DNA from: Oscillospiraceae bacterium
GTDB taxonomy: Bacteria; Bacillota; Clostridia; Oscillospirales; Ruminococcaceae
Assembly: GCA_016288755.1 (NCBI GenBank)
Contig: JAEELE010000139.1
Coordinates: forward strand, 1-63,568
Length of the DNA: 63,568 bases
Direction of reading: 5' to 3'
Positions 5,225 through 60,462 of this stretch are shown piece after piece. The notes under the pieces are model-generated. The model saw nothing but the letters and a program-made list of their open reading frames with translations. It did no database searches and had not been told where the DNA came from. Each line of letters starts with the position of its first letter. Position 1 is the first letter of the stretch. A program made the position numbers and the translations under genes.

Positions 5225-6793
5225 TCAGTTTTGTGAGACCGTGACGGTGTAGACGCCGTTTTCCAGCATGCCGACCGTGACGGTCACGCCCGGGTCGACG
5301 GTCTGATAGCCGCTGCTGTCATACCAGCGGAAGCCGCTGATGCTGCTGCTGACCGTGCTGCCCGCCGTGAAGAATCCGCCGCCCTCCTGCTCATTGACAA
5401 GGCGCAGCACGCGCTGCCGCTGATTGCTGCTGTCGTAATACTGCCCGTAGTTATTCCATTTCAGCTCGGGTCCCCACCAGCCGTTGTTGAGCTCGGCGTC
5501 GCAGTGCATCACGCGGATGCCGCCGTTTCGGAAGGTGGGGTACGCAATGTCGTTATAGAATGTGTATTTGTTGTTCGCGTCCGGCGTCGCATATTCCAGC
5601 AGGAAAAATTCGCTGTGACAGTCATTCAGGTCCCCCCGCGGGATGATGATGCAGCCCGGTGCTTTCTGTGAGCTTTCCAGTGTGAAGGTCTGTGTGCCGC
5701 CGGTATAGACCTGCGCCTCCTGATCGGTGTACCAGCCGAACATCAGCTTGGAGAAGGCGCACATGTCGCCGGATGCGTCGTCCATCATCTCGAGCCCCGC
5801 GTCGCCGTTCAGACCGTAATAGCCGTCCTGCGTGTTCTTGTATTTGTAGTAATCCGGCAGACCCATCGCGTGCCCAAGCTCGTGCACCCATGTGCTGTTG
5901 AAGCCGGAGCGGTCGCTCAGTGCCCATGCGCCGATGCAGAGGTTGCCGCCGCGGACGCCGTCGTAGGTGCGTTCGCCGCCGTAGCCGCCCGAGCACGGCC
6001 ACCAGTCCTCCTGATCGTCGCCGTTTGCATCGCGCCCTGCCGCATCGCCGGGCAGCGCCACGATCACCGTGTCCATGACGCCGTTGCCGTTGACGTCATA
6101 TTTTGTATAGTCGATCTCGCTGTCGAATGCTGAGAGCATTTCCTCCATCAGCGCGTTGGGGCTGCCGTAGCTTTCGACATAGTAGTCGATATTGTATTTT
6201 GCGGTGTACTGGTAGACATCGCCCTCCATGTGCAGCCGCCCGTAGGAGGCGCGCTCGTAGTAGGCGGCGATGCTCTCGAGCGGATATGCCTTGCTGGAGG
6301 TATCCTCCGGACCGAAGGACATCTCCCAGATCTGCTCGGTCGTGTAGCCCTCGCTGTGGGCACAGTCGGGGAAGCTGACCGCGAACATCAGGATATGGGT
6401 CGTGCCGGTGCAGGGGAGCGTCGGTCTCAAAGCCGAGATCGGCGGTGACATCAGCTCGGGCTCCGGGTCCGGGACCTCCTCGAAGATGCCCTCGGGCTCG
6501 GCGCCGGTGAGCAGCAGGCGCTTGAGCAGAGTCAGGTCGGCGGCGTTGATCGTGCCGTTTTTGTCGAGGTCGGAATAGGTCAGCGCCTCCTCGTCGGTGA
6601 GCGGCTGGCTGTTGACCAGATGTGCGGCGAGCGCCTTTGCGTCGTCGGCGCTGACTGTTCCGTCGCGGTTGACGTCACCGCGCTGCCCGATCTGCACCAT
6701 TGCAGCGGAGGCGGTGAACCCTGAGAGTCCCATGAGCGAGAGCGAGCAGGCAGCCAGTCCGGCTGCGAGCAGGCTGCGGAAGATGTGTTTCAT
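5225..6793 (-). CDS. Secreted M6-family metalloprotease with N-terminal type I dockerin
   Basis: A 522-residue secreted protein. Residues 1-31 form a signal peptide (hydrophobic core LLAAGLAACSLSLMGL). A type I dockerin with two calcium-loop repeats (GDVNRDGTVSADD and SDLDKNGTINAAD) spans about residues 38-96. A peptidase M6 (immune inhibitor A-like) domain follows from about 125 and contains the extended zinc motif HELGHAMGLPDYY at 304-316. Such proteases cut extracellular proteins; the dockerin should plug it into a cohesin on a scaffoldin. An N-terminal dockerin directly after the signal peptide is less common than a C-terminal one. It is preceded by its own promoter (6856-6884) and followed by a hairpin. 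Substrate and biological target are unknown. Confidence 0.93.
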   Translation of the reverse strand: MKHIFRSLLAAGLAACSLSLMGLSGFTASAAMVQIGQRGDVNRDGTVSADDAKALAAHLVNSQPLTDEEALTYSDLDKNGTINAADLTLLKRLLLTGAEPEGIFEEVPDPEPELMSPPISALRPTLPCTGTTHILMFAVSFPDCAHSEGYTTEQIWEMSFGPEDTSSKAYPLESIAAYYERASYGRLHMEGDVYQYTAKYNIDYYVESYGSPNALMEEMLSAFDSEIDYTKYDVNGNGVMDTVIVALPGDAAGRDANGDDQEDWWPCSGGYGGERTYDGVRGGNLCIGAWALSDRSGFNSTWVHELGHAMGLPDYYKYKNTQDGYYGLNGDAGLEMMDDASGDMCAFSKLMFGWYTDQEAQVYTGGTQTFTLESSQKAPGCIIIPRGDLNDCHSEFFLLEYATPDANNKYTFYNDIAYPTFRNGGIRVMHCDAELNNGWWGPELKWNNYGQYYDSSNQRQRVLRLVNEQEGGGFFTAGSTVSSSISGFRWYDSSGYQTVDPGVTVTVGMLENGVYTVTVSQN

Positions 6794-39321: not shown

Positions 39322-40152
39322 ATGAAAAGAATGAAACTCATTTCCGGTATCATCGCAGCGGCTATGGCTGTCACTTCGATGAGCGCAGTGACTGCTTTCG
39401 CAGCAGACGTTGCCGTCAAGGTCGGCACCGACACCAAGAACCCGGGGGAAGAATTCAGCGTGACCGTTGATCTGTCCGGCGTTCCGTCGTCCGGTCTGAG
39501 CACCATCGACTTCGCAATCAGCTACGACGCCAGCCTGATCGATATCACCGGCGTCACGCTCGGCTCGATCGGCAGCACCGGCGCAGCAGCACAGGAAGGC
39601 TCCGATCTGGGCGACACCGTGTTCAACTGGTACAAGAACGACGGCGAGATCGAGATCGTCTGGGCAACCGGTCTGACCGATTCGTCCTACTGGGTCAGCA
39701 AGGACGGCACGCTCGCAACCATTTCCGGTACTGTCAAGTCTGATGCCGCAAAGGGCAGCAAGGCTGACCTGAAGGTCAAGGCAGTCGGCCGTGAGGCATA
39801 TCCGGGCGGCTCCGCAAACGCTGACATTCTGTTCACTGCAATCGGTGAGTCCAGCACCACCGACTACACCGCAGCACCGACCAACGGCTATGTCCAGATC
39901 GGCGGCGGCACCGTGAATCCGACCGTGACCTACGGCGACGTCGACTGCAACGGCGATGTGAACGTCGCAGACGCAGTTCTGCTCGCACGTCTCGAGGCAG
40001 AAGACAAGGAAGTCACCGTTACCGCACAGGGCAAGCTGAATGCAGACTGCTCCAACGACGGCAAGGGCGCGCTTACCGCTGAGGACCTGAACGCACTGCT
40101 GTCCTATCTGGCAGGCATCTACAAGTACGATCAGCTTCCGATCGCCGAGTAA
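39322..40152 (+). CDS. Cohesin-dockerin adaptor scaffoldin (ScaC-like)
   Basis: The 276-residue secreted protein has a signal peptide (residues 1-28, ending AFAAD), one cohesin domain (about 29-180) and a C-terminal type I dockerin (about 204-266). The cohesin shows the usual pattern: VKVGTDTKNPGEEFSVTVDL at the start, then DFAISYDASLIDITGV and the later GEIEIVWAT strand. The dockerin repeats are GDVDCNGDVNVADAVLLAR and CSNDGKGALTAEDLNALL. A single cohesin plus dockerin is the design of ScaC-type adaptors in Ruminococcus flavefaciens and R. champanellensis: they dock on a larger scaffoldin and change which enzyme is carried. GGAGGAG precedes the ATG. It stands alone between tsf and glyA, with its own strong terminator. 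Confidence 0.9.
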   Translation: MKRMKLISGIIAAAMAVTSMSAVTAFAADVAVKVGTDTKNPGEEFSVTVDLSGVPSSGLSTIDFAISYDASLIDITGVTLGSIGSTGAAAQEGSDLGDTVFNWYKNDGEIEIVWATGLTDSSYWVSKDGTLATISGTVKSDAAKGSKADLKVKAVGREAYPGGSANADILFTAIGESSTTDYTAAPTNGYVQIGGGTVNPTVTYGDVDCNGDVNVADAVLLARLEAEDKEVTVTAQGKLNADCSNDGKGALTAEDLNALLSYLAGIYKYDQLPIAE

Positions 40153-53782: not shown

Positions 53783-54070
53783 GAAGGGAGGAAGTCAAGT
53801 GAGGAGTGAGCAGTGAGGAGTGAGGAGTTGGTGCGGTCACCTACGCTGGCATTTCCCTCCGGGCACATTTTGCGAAGCCTCCCAATTCGCGTGATTGCAC
53901 GGCGCGAAAGCCCCTTCCGAAAGGTCAACGCTCCCAGCGCATTACACAATCAGCAGAAGAAGTGAAGGTGACGGAACACCTCCTCCCTCCTCTCTCCTCC
54001 CTGCTCCCTTTCGTGACGGCAACGGGACCATTTCTCATTTCTCATTCCGCATTCCGCATTCCGCATTTCC
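53783..54070. repeat. Composite dispersed repeat with inverted heads and a 106-bp-unit relative
   Basis: The 383-base gap between rsmI and the dockerin gene has no gene. It holds a plus-strand purine-rich head right after the rsmI stop (53783-53830), a minus-strand copy related to the 106-bp unit of 63293-63568 (about 53829-53945; shared words GGGAGGCTTCGC, CCCGGAGGGAA, CGCCGTGCA), a minus-strand head (about 53945-53990) and TTTCTCATT / ATTCCGC tail units (54028-54070). Confidence 0.75.
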
Positions 54071-54082
54071 TCCCTCATCTGC

Positions 54083-54117
54083 AAAAAAACGCCCCCGCAG
54101 TTGTGTTCTGCGGGGGC
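54083..54117 (-). terminator. Terminator of the sigma/anti-sigma/dockerin operon
   Basis: Stem GCCCCCGCAG/CTGCGGGGGC (54091-54100 with 54108-54117), followed on the minus strand by seven T. It lies 46 bases after the dockerin gene stop. Confidence 0.93.
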
Positions 54118-54163
54118 TGATCTGTGCGCGGTATGTGTGCAGCTGCATACCGTCGGGAGAATG

Positions 54164-55189
54164 TTATTCGGGACAGACCGGCAGCTCTGCGGCTTTGCGG
54201 ATGCCCGCGAGCAGCTGCAGGATCACGTTGAGGTCGTCGCTGTCGAGAATGCCGTCCGCATCGGCAAAGCAGGCAGCATTGCGCTTGCCCTGCGGCGTGA
54301 CCGTGACCGCAGTGTCCTCGGCAAGATACCGCGCCAGCAGCACCGCATCTGCGATATCCGCGCGCCCGGTGCAATCCGCGTCTCCCCAGACCGTCCTGAT
54401 GATCGGGTCGGAAACAGTCGTGCAGTCAGTTGTCGTTTCAGCGGGGTAATCCAGATGCTCCACGACCCTGACCGTGCAGGAGCAGGATCTTCCGTCTGCG
54501 GCAGTCGCCGTCAGCACGGTTTCGCCGGGGCGAAGCGGGTTGAACTGCAGGAGCCGGTAGTATTCTGCATCGTAGTCCATCGACAGCTCCGCGACGGTCG
54601 GGTCGGAGAAGGTATAGCTGATCTCCGATTCCCATGTGCCGATCAGCTTCACATCGGTGCTGTTTATCAAATCAAGCGGGATCGGGATCGGCGCGCCGTC
54701 TGCAATGCGCGGATCGGTCGGTTCGAAGCGCAGGTCGCTGCCGTTCGATTGCAGCACGACATAGTAGCTGATGCGATCGCCTTTCAGCTTGACGCGGATC
54801 TTGCCGTCCTTTGCCTTATCAAGCGGCAGGTCGGTGCTGCATTCGATCACGCCGGGCTCCGATCTGACGGAGAGGAGATAGCCGCCCGGTGTGCTGAAAT
54901 CCACTTTGGTCATGTCGATGGTGTAGCTGTCTGCGAATTCACCGGAGCCGACCGTGAACCGGCACGGCTGTACCTGCAAATTCTGATCGTCCGGGTCGGC
55001 ATAGACGGAGAGAACGAGCACCGCATTGCTGAGATCCGGTTCCTGCCCGGTATAGAGCGTGTCGGGACAGTCATCCATGTAGAAGTAGCCGATGTAGTCA
55101 TAGTCCTCCGTATCCGCTGCCGCGGGGAAGCTGCCGGGCAGCAGCGCCGTCACCGCTGCGGTCAGGCATGCAAGGAACCGCTTTTTCAT
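54164..55189 (-). CDS. Secreted dockerin protein sharing Ig-like domains with the adjacent sensor
   Basis: The 341-residue product has a signal peptide (residues 1-25, ending PAAAD), an Ig-like domain around residues 30-150 (TKVDFSTPGGYLLSVRS), a Big-type domain around 175-243 (SEISYTFSDPTVAEL and GETVLTATAADGRSCS) and a C-terminal type I dockerin (269-330, GDADCTGRADIADAVLLAR and DADGILDSDDLNVIL). No catalytic motif was seen. Both non-dockerin domains resemble parts of the membrane sensor encoded just upstream. The gene starts 14 bases after the sensor gene stop, so they are co-transcribed. It is probably a cellulosome-borne binding or signalling partner. Confidence 0.85.
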   Translation of the reverse strand: MKKRFLACLTAAVTALLPGSFPAAADTEDYDYIGYFYMDDCPDTLYTGQEPDLSNAVLVLSVYADPDDQNLQVQPCRFTVGSGEFADSYTIDMTKVDFSTPGGYLLSVRSEPGVIECSTDLPLDKAKDGKIRVKLKGDRISYYVVLQSNGSDLRFEPTDPRIADGAPIPIPLDLINSTDVKLIGTWESEISYTFSDPTVAELSMDYDAEYYRLLQFNPLRPGETVLTATAADGRSCSCTVRVVEHLDYPAETTTDCTTVSDPIIRTVWGDADCTGRADIADAVLLARYLAEDTAVTVTPQGKRNAACFADADGILDSDDLNVILQLLAGIRKAAELPVCPE

Positions 55190-55203
55190 GGGGATCCCTC
55201 CCT

Positions 55204-57840
55204 TCAGTCTGTGGTCGTTTCACCGCTCAGGTCGTCGTTGACATATTTCACCGTGATCCGGATGCTCTTGCTTCTGCCGTCGGATGTGCGGACGGTCAGC
55301 GTCGTGGTGCCGTTCTTTTTGCCCGTCATCGCGATGCGGAGCGTTCTGCCCATGTTCAGGTATTTCGTGTCCGGCGTGTCGATCTCCAGCACAGCGCTGT
55401 CGCCGATCTCATAGGTTACGTCGGCGCCCCAGACGTTTTCGAGCTTCAGATAGCCGGTCCAGATCGGGTTGAAGGTGTACGAGCTCACGTCGGTGTTTCC
55501 GTATTCATCGGTGAAGGAGAGCACATCGGAGCGCTGCTCGAGCGTGATCTGCACCGCCTGCCGCGCGCGCTGAACGAACCCGTTGAAGTGCAGCTTTTCC
55601 AGCGTGCCGTTGGTGCGGTAGTAGCTGAAATCGCCCATTTCTCCGCCGATGCTCTCAAAATAGACCGTATAGGTGCCGGGCTTTGAGAAGTCCACGCCGC
55701 TTGTGTCGATGCGCCAGCACTGCTGCAGTGATTCGTCATAAGGGGAGACGTTTGCAGAGACATCTGCCGTGACGCCGTATTTGTCTGTGACATTTGCTTT
55801 CGCGCTGACACAGAGCCCCGAGAAATCCAGCGGCTTGCCGACAAACTGCCTTGTGTTCCATTCGGTCAGCACGAGTGTTGCGCCGAACACCGTCTGCTGA
55901 ATCTTCAGCGACGCGGGCGTTTCGAGGTATTTCAGCACGCCGTCGTAGATTTCCAGCCGTCCGAGCGGATAGGTGCCCAGGTCCACGGAATCCTGGATCG
56001 CTGTCATATAGGGCAGTGTCCGCGCGTACAGCACGCCGCTGACGGAATCGAGGATATAGTCATACTTTCCGCGGTCGCTGAGCGAATAGGTCTTGCTGTT
56101 GTGCAGATCGCAGACCGCGATGCGTTCGTCAATGATGCCGCTGCCGCAGCTGAGTGTGGTGCACAGCTCGGGATAGCCGTCGTAATTGAGATCGCAGAAA
56201 TACGCGTTGACCGGGACTGTCGGGAGACCGTCGGTATCGAGCTGAAGCGCCGCAGCTTTGCCGTTTTTCAGCAGACCGATGCCGGCGTGATCGCTGTAGG
56301 TGAAGACCAGATCGGGGAATGCCGCGACCTTGACCTGTGCCGGAGCATCGGCTTTTTTGGTGCTGCCGCCGAACCACTCGCACGCCTGATTGCCCTTCGG
56401 GAAGAGCTCGGAGGGATTCAGCACCCGCGGCGTTGTTTCGGTCATTTTTCCGGTGTCCGCCGTTGTGCTGCCGGTCGTTCCGCCGGATGCGGTGCCCTTC
56501 GTGCCCGCGGTCGTCACGCCGCTGAACGGGTCGGGCGTGGTTTTGTCTTCGCCGTGTGCGGGGTCTGTCGTGACGGTCGTGCCGGGGACGACCGTGCCGC
56601 CGCGCGGTTCGAGCGTGACCGAAAATGCCGAACGCTGTGCGAGCATTGCGGCAGTACAGCTTTTCTGTTCGCCCGTATCCGATGCGGTATACGAGAATTT
56701 CGCCGTTTCGCCCGTCATGGAGCAGAGATACACAGGATAGGTGCCGGGTCGCGTGAAATCGACCGCGCTCGTGTCAAGGCGCCAGCAGTTCCAATACTGC
56801 TTATTGCTTGCATAGAACCGGGCAAATTCCTGCCGGAAGGAATACGACTCCGTGCCGGGCACTTTGATATCCAGCCGCGCCTGAATGTCCATGCCCTCGA
56901 GGTCGAGCGGCTCGCCGACATACTGCTTCGTGTCCCATTTACTGATGACAAGCGCGCCCTCGGCGTCGGGCTGCACGGACTCGCCGTATTTCGACTGTAA
57001 CATAAACACGACCTCGCCGCCGCGAATCTCCACTCTGCCGGTATCGCCGCTGAACTCTCTCCGCACATAGAGTGTCCCGTCCTCGGAGAAGAGCTGATAG
57101 CTGAGCGCCAGATTTTCGATCAGCACATGCGGCTCCTTCGCACGGACGTCATACGCGACAAAATAGGTTTCATCGGGCATCTGCCTGTTGACCATGATGA
57201 AGCAGAGCTCGGGGAAGCCGTCGAAATTCAGGTCGCCGAAATAGGCGCATTTTGCATAGGAACCGAGATGTCCGTCGTTGACGTATTTTATTTCAGAATC
57301 CATGCCGCAGATCAGGGTCTCTCCGCCGTTCTGCACCATTGAGATCTCGTTGTTTTCGCTGCGGAGAAACACGGTGTCGGGGAATGCCGCGACCTTGACC
57401 TCCGGGCGTTCGCGGCTCTCCGGGTTGAGATCGGTGTCAAACCACATGCACGCCTGACTGTTCTCCGGGAAGAGCTGCACGGCGTTGGGGTAGAGCTCCG
57501 AAATCTGCACGGTGTCTGCCGTGGTGACGGTCAGGTCGGTCTCATCGGTCTGTGTCTGCCCGGCGGAGATGCTGTCCGCGGTCGAGGTCGGCGTCGCGGG
57601 TGCGCGCCCGATTTTGCCGATCAGTACGATCAGACCTGCCACGATCGCGATGCTTGCTGCCGACGCGACCAAAGTCTCTGCGATGCGCAGCGGGCTCCTG
57701 CGAATTGCGGGCATCTCATCGGGAACGGGCTGTTCTTCGGCATCGTCGGCGGGGTCTGCATCGGGCTGCGGGTGCAGTGCACGCGCGACCTCCTCCTCGG
57801 GCAGTGCGCCGAATGCCTCCATCAGATTCATCGGTTTCAT
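55204..57840 (-). CDS. Membrane-anchored anti-sigma-like sensor with duplicated ectodomain
   Basis: An 878-residue protein. Residues 1-50 are cytoplasmic (MKPMNLMEAFGALPEEEVARA), a membrane helix spans about 55-77, and the rest is outside. The ectodomain has two homologous 298-residue modules (about 114-411 and 474-771), each with an acidic FG-GAP/VCBS-like calcium loop (DLNFDGFPEL, DLNYDGYPEL), a KW-TKQYVGEPLDL / EWNTRQFVGKPLDF block and an Ig-like VDF-PGTY segment. They are split by a Thr/Gly linker. A Big-type domain ends the protein (about 790-868). The start overlaps the stop of an ECF sigma gene by 4 bases; this order and topology are those of an anti-sigma factor. No classical zinc anti-sigma motif is visible. 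Confidence 0.82.
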   Translation of the reverse strand: MKPMNLMEAFGALPEEEVARALHPQPDADPADDAEEQPVPDEMPAIRRSPLRIAETLVASAASIAIVAGLIVLIGKIGRAPATPTSTADSISAGQTQTDETDLTVTTADTVQISELYPNAVQLFPENSQACMWFDTDLNPESRERPEVKVAAFPDTVFLRSENNEISMVQNGGETLICGMDSEIKYVNDGHLGSYAKCAYFGDLNFDGFPELCFIMVNRQMPDETYFVAYDVRAKEPHVLIENLALSYQLFSEDGTLYVRREFSGDTGRVEIRGGEVVFMLQSKYGESVQPDAEGALVISKWDTKQYVGEPLDLEGMDIQARLDIKVPGTESYSFRQEFARFYASNKQYWNCWRLDTSAVDFTRPGTYPVYLCSMTGETAKFSYTASDTGEQKSCTAAMLAQRSAFSVTLEPRGGTVVPGTTVTTDPAHGEDKTTPDPFSGVTTAGTKGTASGGTTGSTTADTGKMTETTPRVLNPSELFPKGNQACEWFGGSTKKADAPAQVKVAAFPDLVFTYSDHAGIGLLKNGKAAALQLDTDGLPTVPVNAYFCDLNYDGYPELCTTLSCGSGIIDERIAVCDLHNSKTYSLSDRGKYDYILDSVSGVLYARTLPYMTAIQDSVDLGTYPLGRLEIYDGVLKYLETPASLKIQQTVFGATLVLTEWNTRQFVGKPLDFSGLCVSAKANVTDKYGVTADVSANVSPYDESLQQCWRIDTSGVDFSKPGTYTVYFESIGGEMGDFSYYRTNGTLEKLHFNGFVQRARQAVQITLEQRSDVLSFTDEYGNTDVSSYTFNPIWTGYLKLENVWGADVTYEIGDSAVLEIDTPDTKYLNMGRTLRIAMTGKKNGTTTLTVRTSDGRSKSIRITVKYVNDDLSGETTTD

Positions 57841-58397
57841 AGGAATCCCTCCTCCTGCAAATAGGTCCTCAGCTTTTTCCGGGTGCGGTGCAGCAGCATT
57901 TTGACGGCGCCGCTCTGCATGCCGCATTCCTCGGCGATCTCTTTGACAGGCTTTGCGAAATAATAGCGCGCCATAAAGACCTGCCTAGTCTGCGGCGGGA
58001 GCGTGCCGAGAAATGCCCGCAGTGCGCGGTTGAGTTCATTCTGCTCAGCCTGCGAGACGACGTCGGTGCTGTCGGGCAGGACCTCGGCGAGCTCGTCGAG
58101 CGCCTGTGTGAAGTGCCTGCCGCCGCGCTTTTGCCGCTCAGCTGCCTTGATGCGGTCGAGTGCATGGCGCCGCACGACCGTGACGAGATAGGCTTCGAGA
58201 CTCTGCGGCGAATTCGGCGGGATGCTGTTCCACAGCGAGAGCAGCGCGTCGTTGAGGCACTCCTCGGCATCCTCTCTGCTGCCGAGCATACGGTCGGCAA
58301 GCGCGATGCAGAGTGCCCCCCATCGGTCGCGGATCGCCTGCAAAGCGTCCTCGCGCCGCTCGTGCAGCATCGCGATGATTGCACGTTCTCCGGGCAT
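57837..58397 (-). CDS. ECF-family RNA polymerase sigma factor
   Basis: The 186-residue sigma-70 family protein has only regions 2 and 4. Region 2 spans about residues 15-90 (WGALCIALADRMLGSREDAEE, then AYLVTVVRRHALDRIK). Region 4 spans about 120-175 (LPPQTRQVFMARYYFAKPVKEI-type helices, here split: LPPQTRQVFMARYYF and KPVKEIAEECG), with the DNA-binding helix SGAVKMLLHRTRKKL. The ATG at 58395-58397 has GGGGGTGAG upstream. Its stop overlaps the start of the anti-sigma-like gene, so they are made together. An ECF-type promoter lies in front, suggesting autoregulation. Confidence 0.93.
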   Translation of the reverse strand: MPGERAIIAMLHERREDALQAIRDRWGALCIALADRMLGSREDAEECLNDALLSLWNSIPPNSPQSLEAYLVTVVRRHALDRIKAAERQKRGGRHFTQALDELAEVLPDSTDVVSQAEQNELNRALRAFLGTLPPQTRQVFMARYYFAKPVKEIAEECGMQSGAVKMLLHRTRKKLRTYLQEEGFL

Positions 58398-58422
58398 ATG
58401 CTCACCCCCTTCTGTATTCTGA

Positions 58423-58448
58423 GACGACAAATTGCCGGAAAGGTAACA
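58423..58448 (-). promoter_or_regulatory. Predicted ECF sigma promoter in front of the sigma gene
   Basis: On the minus strand TGTTAC and CGTC are separated by 16 bases, the spacing and form of ECF promoters (for example TGAAAC-N16-CGTA/CGTC of Bacillus sigma-W type). It is 26 bases upstream of the start codon. No sigma-A promoter was found here. Confidence 0.6.
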
Positions 58449-58540
58449 ATGAAAAATGAGAAATGAGAAATATTTCAGGGCGGACGAAAGCCTCATCCGG
58501 ATCATCCGCTCCGGCGGATGCCGCCATTTCTCATTATGTT
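58442..58540. repeat. Fragment of the dispersed-repeat tail
   Basis: AAATGAGAAATGAGAAAT units (58451-58472), ATCATCCGCTCCGGCGGAT hairpin (58500-58519) and CCGCCATTTCTCATT resemble the body and tail of the elements at 4917-5180 and 51268-51480. Confidence 0.55.
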
Positions 58541-58590: not shown

Positions 58591-60462
58591 TTACTTCCCG
58601 GGAGCGAGCTGCTCCTTCGTGATGAGATTCGCAAGGAAGTTGAGAACCTTTGCGGTGTCATCCGCATCAATATTGTTGTCACCGGTCACGTCGGCATTCG
58701 CCTTGCCCTTTGTGCTCACGGTGATCTCCTTGTCCTCCGCGCAGAAGCGCGCCAGCAGAACCGCGTCTGCCACGTCGACCGAGCCGTTGCAGTCCACGTC
58801 GCCCCAGTCTGCCTCGGGGATCGGTGCCGCTGTGGTGTCCTGCGGCGTGGTGGTGGTTTCGGGCTGCGAAGTCGTGGTCTCCTTCGGCGTATCGGAGATC
58901 ACAACGTGGGAGCCGTGATTGCCGCCGACCGTGCCGCCGTCGAGGTTCGAGCCCTCGGTGTTGGCATAGCTGGAATAGAACTCGCTCAGCGAGAGACCGG
59001 TGCCGTTGATGCCCAGCGGATGCTGGTGATCCAGACCGATGTACTTGCCGGTCGTCTGGGTCTGCCAGAGCGCCTTCTCAAAGAGCGCGTACTTGTCCTC
59101 TTCCCATGTGATCGTGGTGCCGTTGCTCTTTTCGGAGACACCGTTGATGCTGTAGGAGAAGCCTGCCCAGAGTCCGCCGGTATCGCCGGAGTTGGTGTTC
59201 AGGCACCAGAAGGTGTGGTTGATGTGGTGATTGATCATGTAGTCACGCAGCAGCGTCATCCACTTCTGGTTCTCTGCGCCGTCCATATGACCGCCCCACT
59301 CGCCGATCAGCAGCGGTGCGATGTCCTCGTGGTTGATGAACTCCCATGTGTCGCGCCAGTAGTCTGCGAGCAGCGTCTCGGTGGTGAAGTTCTTGTCAAA
59401 CCAGGTCTGTGCGTAGACGGAAGGACCGTAGTCGTGCGGAGAGTAGACGATCTGCGAATTGCCGGTGCCGTCGAGCTTGATCGGCCATTCGCGGACGCCG
59501 CGGAGGTTGCCGCCCCACCATGCACCGATGTACGGCGAATTGTCGCGGCGGTCGCCCATGCCCCAGTAGTCGCCCTCCATCGCGCCGCTCATCGACTGCT
59601 CAACGCCTTCGATAAGGATCAGTGCGTTCGGGTTGACCTTGAGAATGGCATTTGCGCACTTTGTTGCGGCATAAGCCCAGTTGTTTTCGTCGGTGGAGCC
59701 GTCCCACTTGGCAGCTTCGTCGCCCTCCTGACCCTTGCCGTGCGGCTCATTCTCGAGGTCGAAGCCGAGCAGCGTGTCGTCGTTCTTGTACTCGTTTGCC
59801 ATCCAGACCAGCGAGTCGATCCATACCTGGGTCGTGACGCCTGCCTTGCCGTACCAGAGATTGTAGTTGTGACCGGAGTTGTCCGCGTGCGGGCTGTGCA
59901 CGTCGATGAAGCACTTCATGCCGTACTTCTTCAGCTTGCTGAGAATGATTTCAAAGCCCTTTTTGCTGTTGACATGGGTCTTGCCGTCCGCTTCGACGAA
60001 ATCCTTGTTGATGCTGCCGTAGGTGCCTGCCTTGGTAATCGTTCCGTCCTCACCCTTCACGTCTGTCGGCGGGTTGTAGCACGCCTGCAGACCGCCGCCG
60101 GAGATCGGCGGATCCTCGCCGTTCATCATTTCGACCAGCAGCTCGGAGGAGAACGGGAAGCGGATGATGTTGATGCCTCTGTCGGAGCATTCCCGCAGCA
60201 GATCGTCGCAGTCGGCGGCGTAGAGATAGTGCGGGCAGCGCTCGGAGCAGTTGAAGCCGAACCAGTTTGCGCCGGTCAGCCAGACCTCGTTGCCGTCCTT
60301 GTCGAACAGGCGGCTGCCCTCCGCGTGCAGCCAGTCGTCGTTGGTGTCGTCGGCAGCTGCTGCAGAAAAGCTCTGCTTCACGGTGTCACCCGTCAGCGAG
60401 AGCGTTCCCGTCGCTGCGACGACTGCTGCCATCATCAGTGACAGCCAGTGCTTTGCTTTCAT
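58591..60462 (-). CDS. Glycoside hydrolase family 5 endoglucanase with C-terminal dockerin
   Basis: A 623-residue secreted enzyme expected to cut beta-1,4-glucan (cellulose). A signal peptide (about residues 1-37) precedes the GH5 barrel (about 45-500). The acid/base Glu lies in LENEP (E239), the nucleophile Glu in IGEWGG (E388), and the substrate-site motifs NIIRFPFS, FIDVHSPH and PHDYGP are present. A Thr/Pro-rich linker (about 520-550) leads to a type I dockerin (553-613: GDVDCNGSVDVADAVLLAR, GDNNIDADDTAKVL). This is a classical cellulosomal cellulase. The substrate call is from family resemblance; other beta-glucans are possible. GGGGGAA precedes the ATG. No promoter was identified. Confidence 0.94.
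   Translation of the reverse strand: MKAKHWLSLMMAAVVAATGTLSLTGDTVKQSFSAAAADDTNDDWLHAEGSRLFDKDGNEVWLTGANWFGFNCSERCPHYLYAADCDDLLRECSDRGINIIRFPFSSELLVEMMNGEDPPISGGGLQACYNPPTDVKGEDGTITKAGTYGSINKDFVEADGKTHVNSKKGFEIILSKLKKYGMKCFIDVHSPHADNSGHNYNLWYGKAGVTTQVWIDSLVWMANEYKNDDTLLGFDLENEPHGKGQEGDEAAKWDGSTDENNWAYAATKCANAILKVNPNALILIEGVEQSMSGAMEGDYWGMGDRRDNSPYIGAWWGGNLRGVREWPIKLDGTGNSQIVYSPHDYGPSVYAQTWFDKNFTTETLLADYWRDTWEFINHEDIAPLLIGEWGGHMDGAENQKWMTLLRDYMINHHINHTFWCLNTNSGDTGGLWAGFSYSINGVSEKSNGTTITWEEDKYALFEKALWQTQTTGKYIGLDHQHPLGINGTGLSLSEFYSSYANTEGSNLDGGTVGGNHGSHVVISDTPKETTTSQPETTTTPQDTTAAPIPEADWGDVDCNGSVDVADAVLLARFCAEDKEITVSTKGKANADVTGDNNIDADDTAKVLNFLANLITKEQLAPGK

Follow-up and report, generated by a model that had tools for sequence, protein, structure and literature searches.

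The window analyzed here, the whole 63,568-nucleotide stretch of Oscillospiraceae bacterium DNA that forms contig 32 of a 3.47-Mb genome, probably that of a cellulosome-making Ruminococcus, carries in series on its minus strand the genes of an ECF sigma factor, a one-pass membrane sensor and a secreted dockerin protein (Table 1). The preliminary description of the locus had these genes overlapping or abutting and ending at one terminator, and its layout was confirmed throughout: the sigma and sensor genes overlap by 4 bases, 14 bases separate the sensor from the dockerin gene, and stem pairing and RNA folding agree on a single strong terminator 3' of the three genes, with a stem of 10 pairs, 9 of them G-C, followed by a T run and a fold of -27.6 kcal/mol (z -6.44) equalled by none of 200 shuffles. 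Upstream of the operon lies a gene encoding GH5 and dockerin domains (58594-60462), to which a further terminator-like stem at 58575-58547 belongs. Short repeats similar to TTCTCATTTCTCATT flank the operon (54030-54060 and 58448-58471) and are also found upstream of sigma genes at two other loci of the same genome (L132 and L134). Elsewhere in the window, the plus-strand gene at 39322-40152 encodes 276 aa that begin with a cohesin (E 1.9e-18) and end with a dockerin (below threshold in Pfam, strong with our own model), and its product resembles the adaptor scaffoldin ScaC (PMC5429695). In the dockerin protein encoded at 5228-6793 on the minus strand, Pfam also finds an M6-like peptidase domain (E 1.5e-5).

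Table 1. Features of the sigma-sensor-dockerin operon, in window coordinates
Feature	Start	End	Strand	Basis
Candidate ECF-type promoter, TGTTACC-N15-CGTC	58423	58448	-	Single exact motif match in window
ECF sigma factor, 186 aa	57837	58397	-	Pfam Sigma70_r2, Sigma70_r4_2; TIGR02937
One-pass membrane sensor, presumed anti-sigma, 878 aa	55204	57840	-	In-frame 4-base overlap, N-terminal membrane segment
Transmembrane segment, about residues 58-76	57613	57669	-	Hydropathy
Sensor FG-GAP-like domain, first copy, approximate ends	56950	57507	-	Internal duplicate of 56433-55885
Sensor Ig-like domain, first copy, approximate ends	56596	56949	-	Module search, E 2.5e-26
Sensor FG-GAP-like domain, second copy, approximate ends	55885	56433	-	Sub-threshold Pfam FG-GAP_3
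Sensor Ig+Big module	55222	55881	-	Profile comparison with partners, blastp to window partner
Secreted dockerin-bearing partner, 341 aa	54164	55189	-	Hydrophobic signal-like N-terminus
Partner Ig+Big module	54446	55111	-	Blastp, profile comparison, structure model
Divergent dockerin, residues 269-328	54206	54385	-	Seed HMM, PDB match
Intrinsic terminator	54083	54117	-	Stem 54117-54091, RNA fold

The sigma factor consists of regions 2 and 4 only and is of the ordinary ECF type; its matches to Pfam ECF region 2 (E 1.7e-11), region 4 (E 4.3e-16) and TIGR02937 (E 1.3e-28) uphold its earlier assignment to the ECF rather than the SigI kind. The sensor starts with a short N-terminal tail, a membrane segment and a threonine-rich linker and continues with two successive pairs of an FG-GAP-like and an Ig-like domain, the second pair being followed by a Big-like domain. 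That it is internally duplicated, as previously suggested, is borne out by a repeat spacing of 1065-1068 bp and an identity of 34% between the two fragments. Pfam recognizes FG-GAP_3 alone in the sensor, below threshold at E 5.2e-4, and neither a dockerin nor a cohesin; the structure model of residues 486-878 has a mean pLDDT of 86. We presume from gene arrangement and topology that the sensor is the anti-sigma factor for the adjoining sigma: within the sigma family, the 4-base overlap with an in-frame sensor start recurs in 119 of 123 sigma-sensor pairs, and the N-terminal membrane segment is found in all 119 sensors scored. The NCBIfam anti-sigma match of the sensor is far under the cut-off (16 of 100 bits), and NCBIfam and Pfam applied to the same six sensors returned nothing informative.

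The partner has no Pfam family at E <= 1 and is absent among the Pfam dockerin matches of its genome, which number at least 134 with 150 of 227 candidates scored. An HMM built from dockerins of this genome and of relatives, the window partner not being among the seeds, nevertheless aligns with it from end to end of the model, which spans two EF-hand-like repeats, at E 3.9e-13. In the PDB, this dockerin matches 5n5p_B best (E 1.6e-7), an entry annotated as a putative cellulosomal scaffoldin protein in which a similar NA-x-CF stretch occurs; 5m2o_B was also matched. On inspection of the sequence, the second calcium loop seems to have lost its first acidic ligand, and the region is poorly modeled (pLDDT about 37-54) within a structure of mean pLDDT 71, in which the Ig+Big residues 31-250 reach 70-97 per ten-residue block. 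As for possible binding sites of dockerins, cohesins are present in the genome, with 9 matches at E <= 0.01, of which 8 exceed the cut-off.

The sensor and the dockerin protein have a tandem Ig+Big module in common. Proposed earlier from shared sequence patterns, this was substantiated by blastp within the window pair (E 3.9e-5) and by hhalign of a four-sensor profile against a seven-partner profile (99.9%, E 5.7e-37, 218 columns); judged from these alignments, the likeness is far beyond chance. The Foldseek matches listed are mostly generic Ig tandems (S-layer SbsC, intimin D00-D0 and cadherins), with low TM-scores, and glycosidase Ig domains, and they pointed to no ligand type; there is no carbohydrate-binding module (CBM) among those listed for the module or, by Pfam, in the window pair. 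Searching 30 genomes of the genus with the module gave 32 matches at E <= 0.001, 18 of them weak and partial and 14 strong (E < 1e-25), and the strong ones are confined to seven of the 30 genomes. Twelve of the strong matches lie in sigma operons; of the other two, one is the LPxTG gene on contig 39 of our own genome, described below, and the other a dockerin gene of genome G022 that is an orphan. The search query itself contains eleven of the 14 as rows; the three from outside it are the G022 gene, the first Ig copy of the window sensor, which was absent from the query alignment, and a second copy in the partner of G004. Among 297 genomes of the family, the module passes E 1e-12 in three: our own, G022 and, as one partial match, G167. 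In the module tree, the sensors of the window, G004 and G023 group together (99/99), and in the tree of another module type five sensors do so (100/100). As sensor copies thus cluster with sensor copies, these duplicates predate the species concerned and were retained next to each other, with the qualification that the G006 sensor, on a long branch, and several partners fall in no firm place in the Ig+Big tree and that the L054 sensor lies on a very long branch outside the sensor group of the second tree.

By sequence similarity, the window operon is one member of a large family. The sigma family is present at E <= 1e-25 in all 30 genus genomes, with 2-35 copies each and 21 in our own, and sensor matches were found in 13 of the 30 at E <= 0.001. 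Neighborhoods were taken from 80 of 584 confirmed scan loci, 18 + 60 further stretches and the window; the 176 sigma ORFs reduced to 163 different sequences, of which 125 fall within E 1e-66, and among these 125 loci two have no sensor in view, 13 show the sensor only and 110 are readable further. A dockerin gene lies at most two genes past the sensor in 47 of the 110 readable loci, immediately past it in 45 (the window included) and one gene later in two, so that the expectation of a three-gene order kept in relatives came true; in the other 63 no dockerin gene adjoins. These counts are of longest ORFs, many of the operons are orthologous between species and hence non-independent, and the dockerins were counted with a model that had been iterated on these very loci. 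In our own genome, five of the 21 sigma neighborhoods were read (the window and those on contigs 2, 112, 119 and 34); two have a dockerin partner, and the other three show the sensor only, the stretch ending there. The second operon, on contig 112 (L132, 608-3865), belongs to the largest uniform class. Sigma and dockerin counts correlate across the 30 genomes (rho 0.89, or 0.64 with genome size removed), a weak relation in which the dockerin counts saturate, at most 149 candidates having been scored per genome.

Sharing of a module between sensor and partner recurs in some of these operons. With dockerin-like domains masked, sensor and partner match outside the dockerin (blastp E <= 1e-3) in 12 of 48 operons, namely the 47 dockerin triads and the G004 operon L034; shuffled pairs give an expectation of 1.16 and a maximum of 6 in 10000 shuffles, a margin that is optimistic as the test takes related operons as exchangeable, the safer count being five module types and not twelve events. 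No module sharing was detected by blastp in the other 36. The Ig+Big module is shared in the window, L034, L035 and L037, a GGSG/IEYW domain in L061, L068, L148, L150 and L159, a Big_3-like domain in L043, and a module of its own kind in L142. At L171 (1067-3927), the fifth kind, the sensor and the secreted partner are 90% identical over 273 residues, which may reflect a recent copy or gene conversion between a receptor ectodomain and a secreted protein. In the partner at L034 (6004-7902), the Ig+Big module occurs twice, and a sorting-like LPQTG end takes the place of a dockerin. A dockerin or dockerin-like domain is also present on the sensor in some relatives, clearly in L039 (3755-4681) and L060 (8558-9889), where scaffoldins might bind the receptor, and weakly in L036, L186 and L177; the L060 sensor and its first partner share the dockerin-like domain (blastp E 2.1e-6), as on reading do, apparently, those of L174. 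For the two classes that are cleanest, the class of the sensor tracks that of the partner: sensor cluster 1 is joined with partner cluster 0 in 15 of 15 operons, and the other class is consistent in four of four. On the other hand, the largest sensor cluster, heterogeneous with 19 operons, goes with many partner types, and in L036, L039 and L043 other sensors are joined with partners of the Ig+Big cluster.

The pattern TGTNACC-N15-CGTC has one exact match within the window, upstream of the sigma gene. Of 124 family sigma genes, 22 are preceded by a spaced motif, TGTNA[CG][CT]-N15-[CT]G[TA][CT], that was composed after inspection of 40 upstream regions (shuffling gives a mean of 0.13 and a maximum of 2), and the other 102 lack this strict motif; among the 47 triads it precedes 17 (shuffle mean 0.08). 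The short motif is not enriched across the genome, with 25 sites against 19 in the reversed control, and we rejected genome-wide enrichment as evidence. Six of the 25 sites were read besides that of the window. The site at 30415-30390 of contig 39 ends 123 bp before the start of an Ig+Big gene, and by arithmetic over the 25 sites the probability of such a placement by chance is about 1e-3. The product, of 440 aa, is secreted and carries Ig+Big; at its end, LPQTG is followed by a hydrophobic stretch and then by basic residues. Beyond those of the window, this is the only other strong module gene found in the genome, in a search that included it among the query rows; a search with the whole sensor recovered the sensor itself and the N-terminus of one other sensor and missed it. 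An extended promoter pattern, composed with both sites in view, has exactly two sites in the genome at three mismatches or fewer, those of the window and contig 39, and none in the control. The Ig+Big module thus recurs on another contig, in a gene whose promoter is nearly identical and whose product has a wall-anchor-like end, and the idea of a self-contained operon, put forward in the preliminary description, had to be given up. The orphan Ig+Big dockerin gene of G022 has TGTAACC-N15-CGTT upstream. A comparable TGTTACC motif lies before a further ECF sigma gene of our own genome (L192, contig 3, 3943-3917, minus strand), and cross-talk is possible.

Our preferred reading, in which we place moderate confidence, is an autoregulated switch of an ECF sigma and a membrane anti-sigma whose output includes surface proteins with the sensor's own recognition module; probably, the switch displays this module on the membrane, the cellulosome and the wall. 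The cytoplasmic N-terminal tail of the sensor would hold the sigma until the ectodomain binds an extracellular ligand, upon which the sigma would be freed, probably via regulated proteolysis, and would transcribe both the operon that encodes it and the gene of the wall protein. Of the products, the dockerin partner would then become part of the cellulosome, and the LPxTG protein would be attached to the wall. As the sensor, the partner and the LPxTG protein all carry Ig+Big, all three probably bind the same ligand; the output would consequently capture that ligand on the cellulosome and the wall and compete with the sensor, and the response would be damped.

Alternatively, as the preliminary description had it, the two proteins may meet without an intermediary: the dockerin partner could itself be the ligand of the sensor through Ig+Big, the cell sensing the export, the assembly or the wall presence of its cellulosome. 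We regard this as possible but clearly less probable than the switch with an extracellular ligand. Such contact would fit the co-encoded pairs with matched modules, the near confinement of strong module matches to the circuit and the dockerin-like domains on the sensors of some relatives, which could potentially bind scaffoldin cohesins; it would also fit the class paired in 15 of 15 operons, though sensor and partner there lack detectable homology. Vertical inheritance of operons, however, likewise holds classes together, and Pfam finds neither a dockerin nor a cohesin in the window sensor. A doubtful reading is substrate sensing of the RsgI type, with Ig+Big an unrecognized CBM and the dockerin protein a cellulosomal adhesin outside the signaling. 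It draws on a parallel, PMC3413522 describing RsgI ectodomains with CBMs and other binding modules; against it, no protein with a strong module match looks enzyme-fused (by sequence reading, and by Pfam for the window pair and the contig 39 protein), and the structural matches listed include no CBM. Finally, mere accident of neighborhood is very improbable: dockerin genes are indeed abundant in the genome, Ig and Big domains are generic surface modules and more than half of the readable loci have no adjoining dockerin gene, but the module-sharing shuffle test and the 47 loci in which position +2 or +3 is occupied by a dockerin gene largely refute accident as the origin of the three-gene order, and the window-type module is strong in so few genomes of the genus.

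Among known systems, the closest in outline is SigI/RsgI of Clostridium thermocellum, Acetivibrio and Pseudobacteroides cellulosolvens, which likewise combines a membrane anti-sigma of modular ectodomain with an alternative sigma, has many paralogues per genome and is linked to cellulosome genes. Some RsgI-type ectodomain modules are also present on cellulosome proteins. The differences are that the sigma here is an ECF sigma (classed by ECF models), that a dockerin protein is co-encoded and that the module of the sensor is common to the dockerin protein and an LPxTG protein. RsgI_N (PF12791) was not found in the window sensor at E <= 1 and exceeds the cut-off in none of the 30 genus genomes, with two weak matches in G012 and G018; this and the ECF matches of the sigma led us to reject membership of SigI/RsgI. 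Pairs of an ECF sigma and a one-pass anti-sigma in Clostridia share the 4-base overlap, the short N-terminal tail, the single membrane segment and, before some of the sigma genes, the spaced promoter motif, whereas here there is a third gene, with a dockerin and homologous to the ectodomain of the second. The dockerin proteins of unknown function of R. flavefaciens FD-1, as far as PMC2930009 describes them in its main text, resemble the partner in their signal peptide and modules of unknown function; no word starting with "sigma" occurs in that text, and hence no link so named of dockerin proteins to sigma or anti-sigma genes. Passages of open-access literature, a scope that leaves subscription papers and preprints aside, describe no such Ruminococcus system. 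On these comparisons and this reading, we take the system to be RsgI-like in outline yet not RsgI, and to be a novel form of ECF/anti-sigma signaling.

A broader and more tentative proposal, to which we give limited credence, is a closed loop between machine assembly and expression. The expanded ECF switches of cellulosome-making Ruminococcus would monitor the condition of the cell's own cellulosome. Every sensor would carry the module or, in some operons, the dockerin-like domain of the protein that it induces, and the receptor and the secreted part would meet directly or via one ligand. According to a 2024 survey (PMC11557425), RsgI receptors regulate composition only in bacteria with Acetivibrio-type cellulosomes. 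This leaves open Ruminococcus, makers of elaborate rumen cellulosomes, and the ECF family is a concrete candidate for their regulator. The module common to the sensor and its secreted product makes the question of what is sensed directly testable, and with so many such switches in the relatives, they may be how these bacteria tune their plant-digesting machine.
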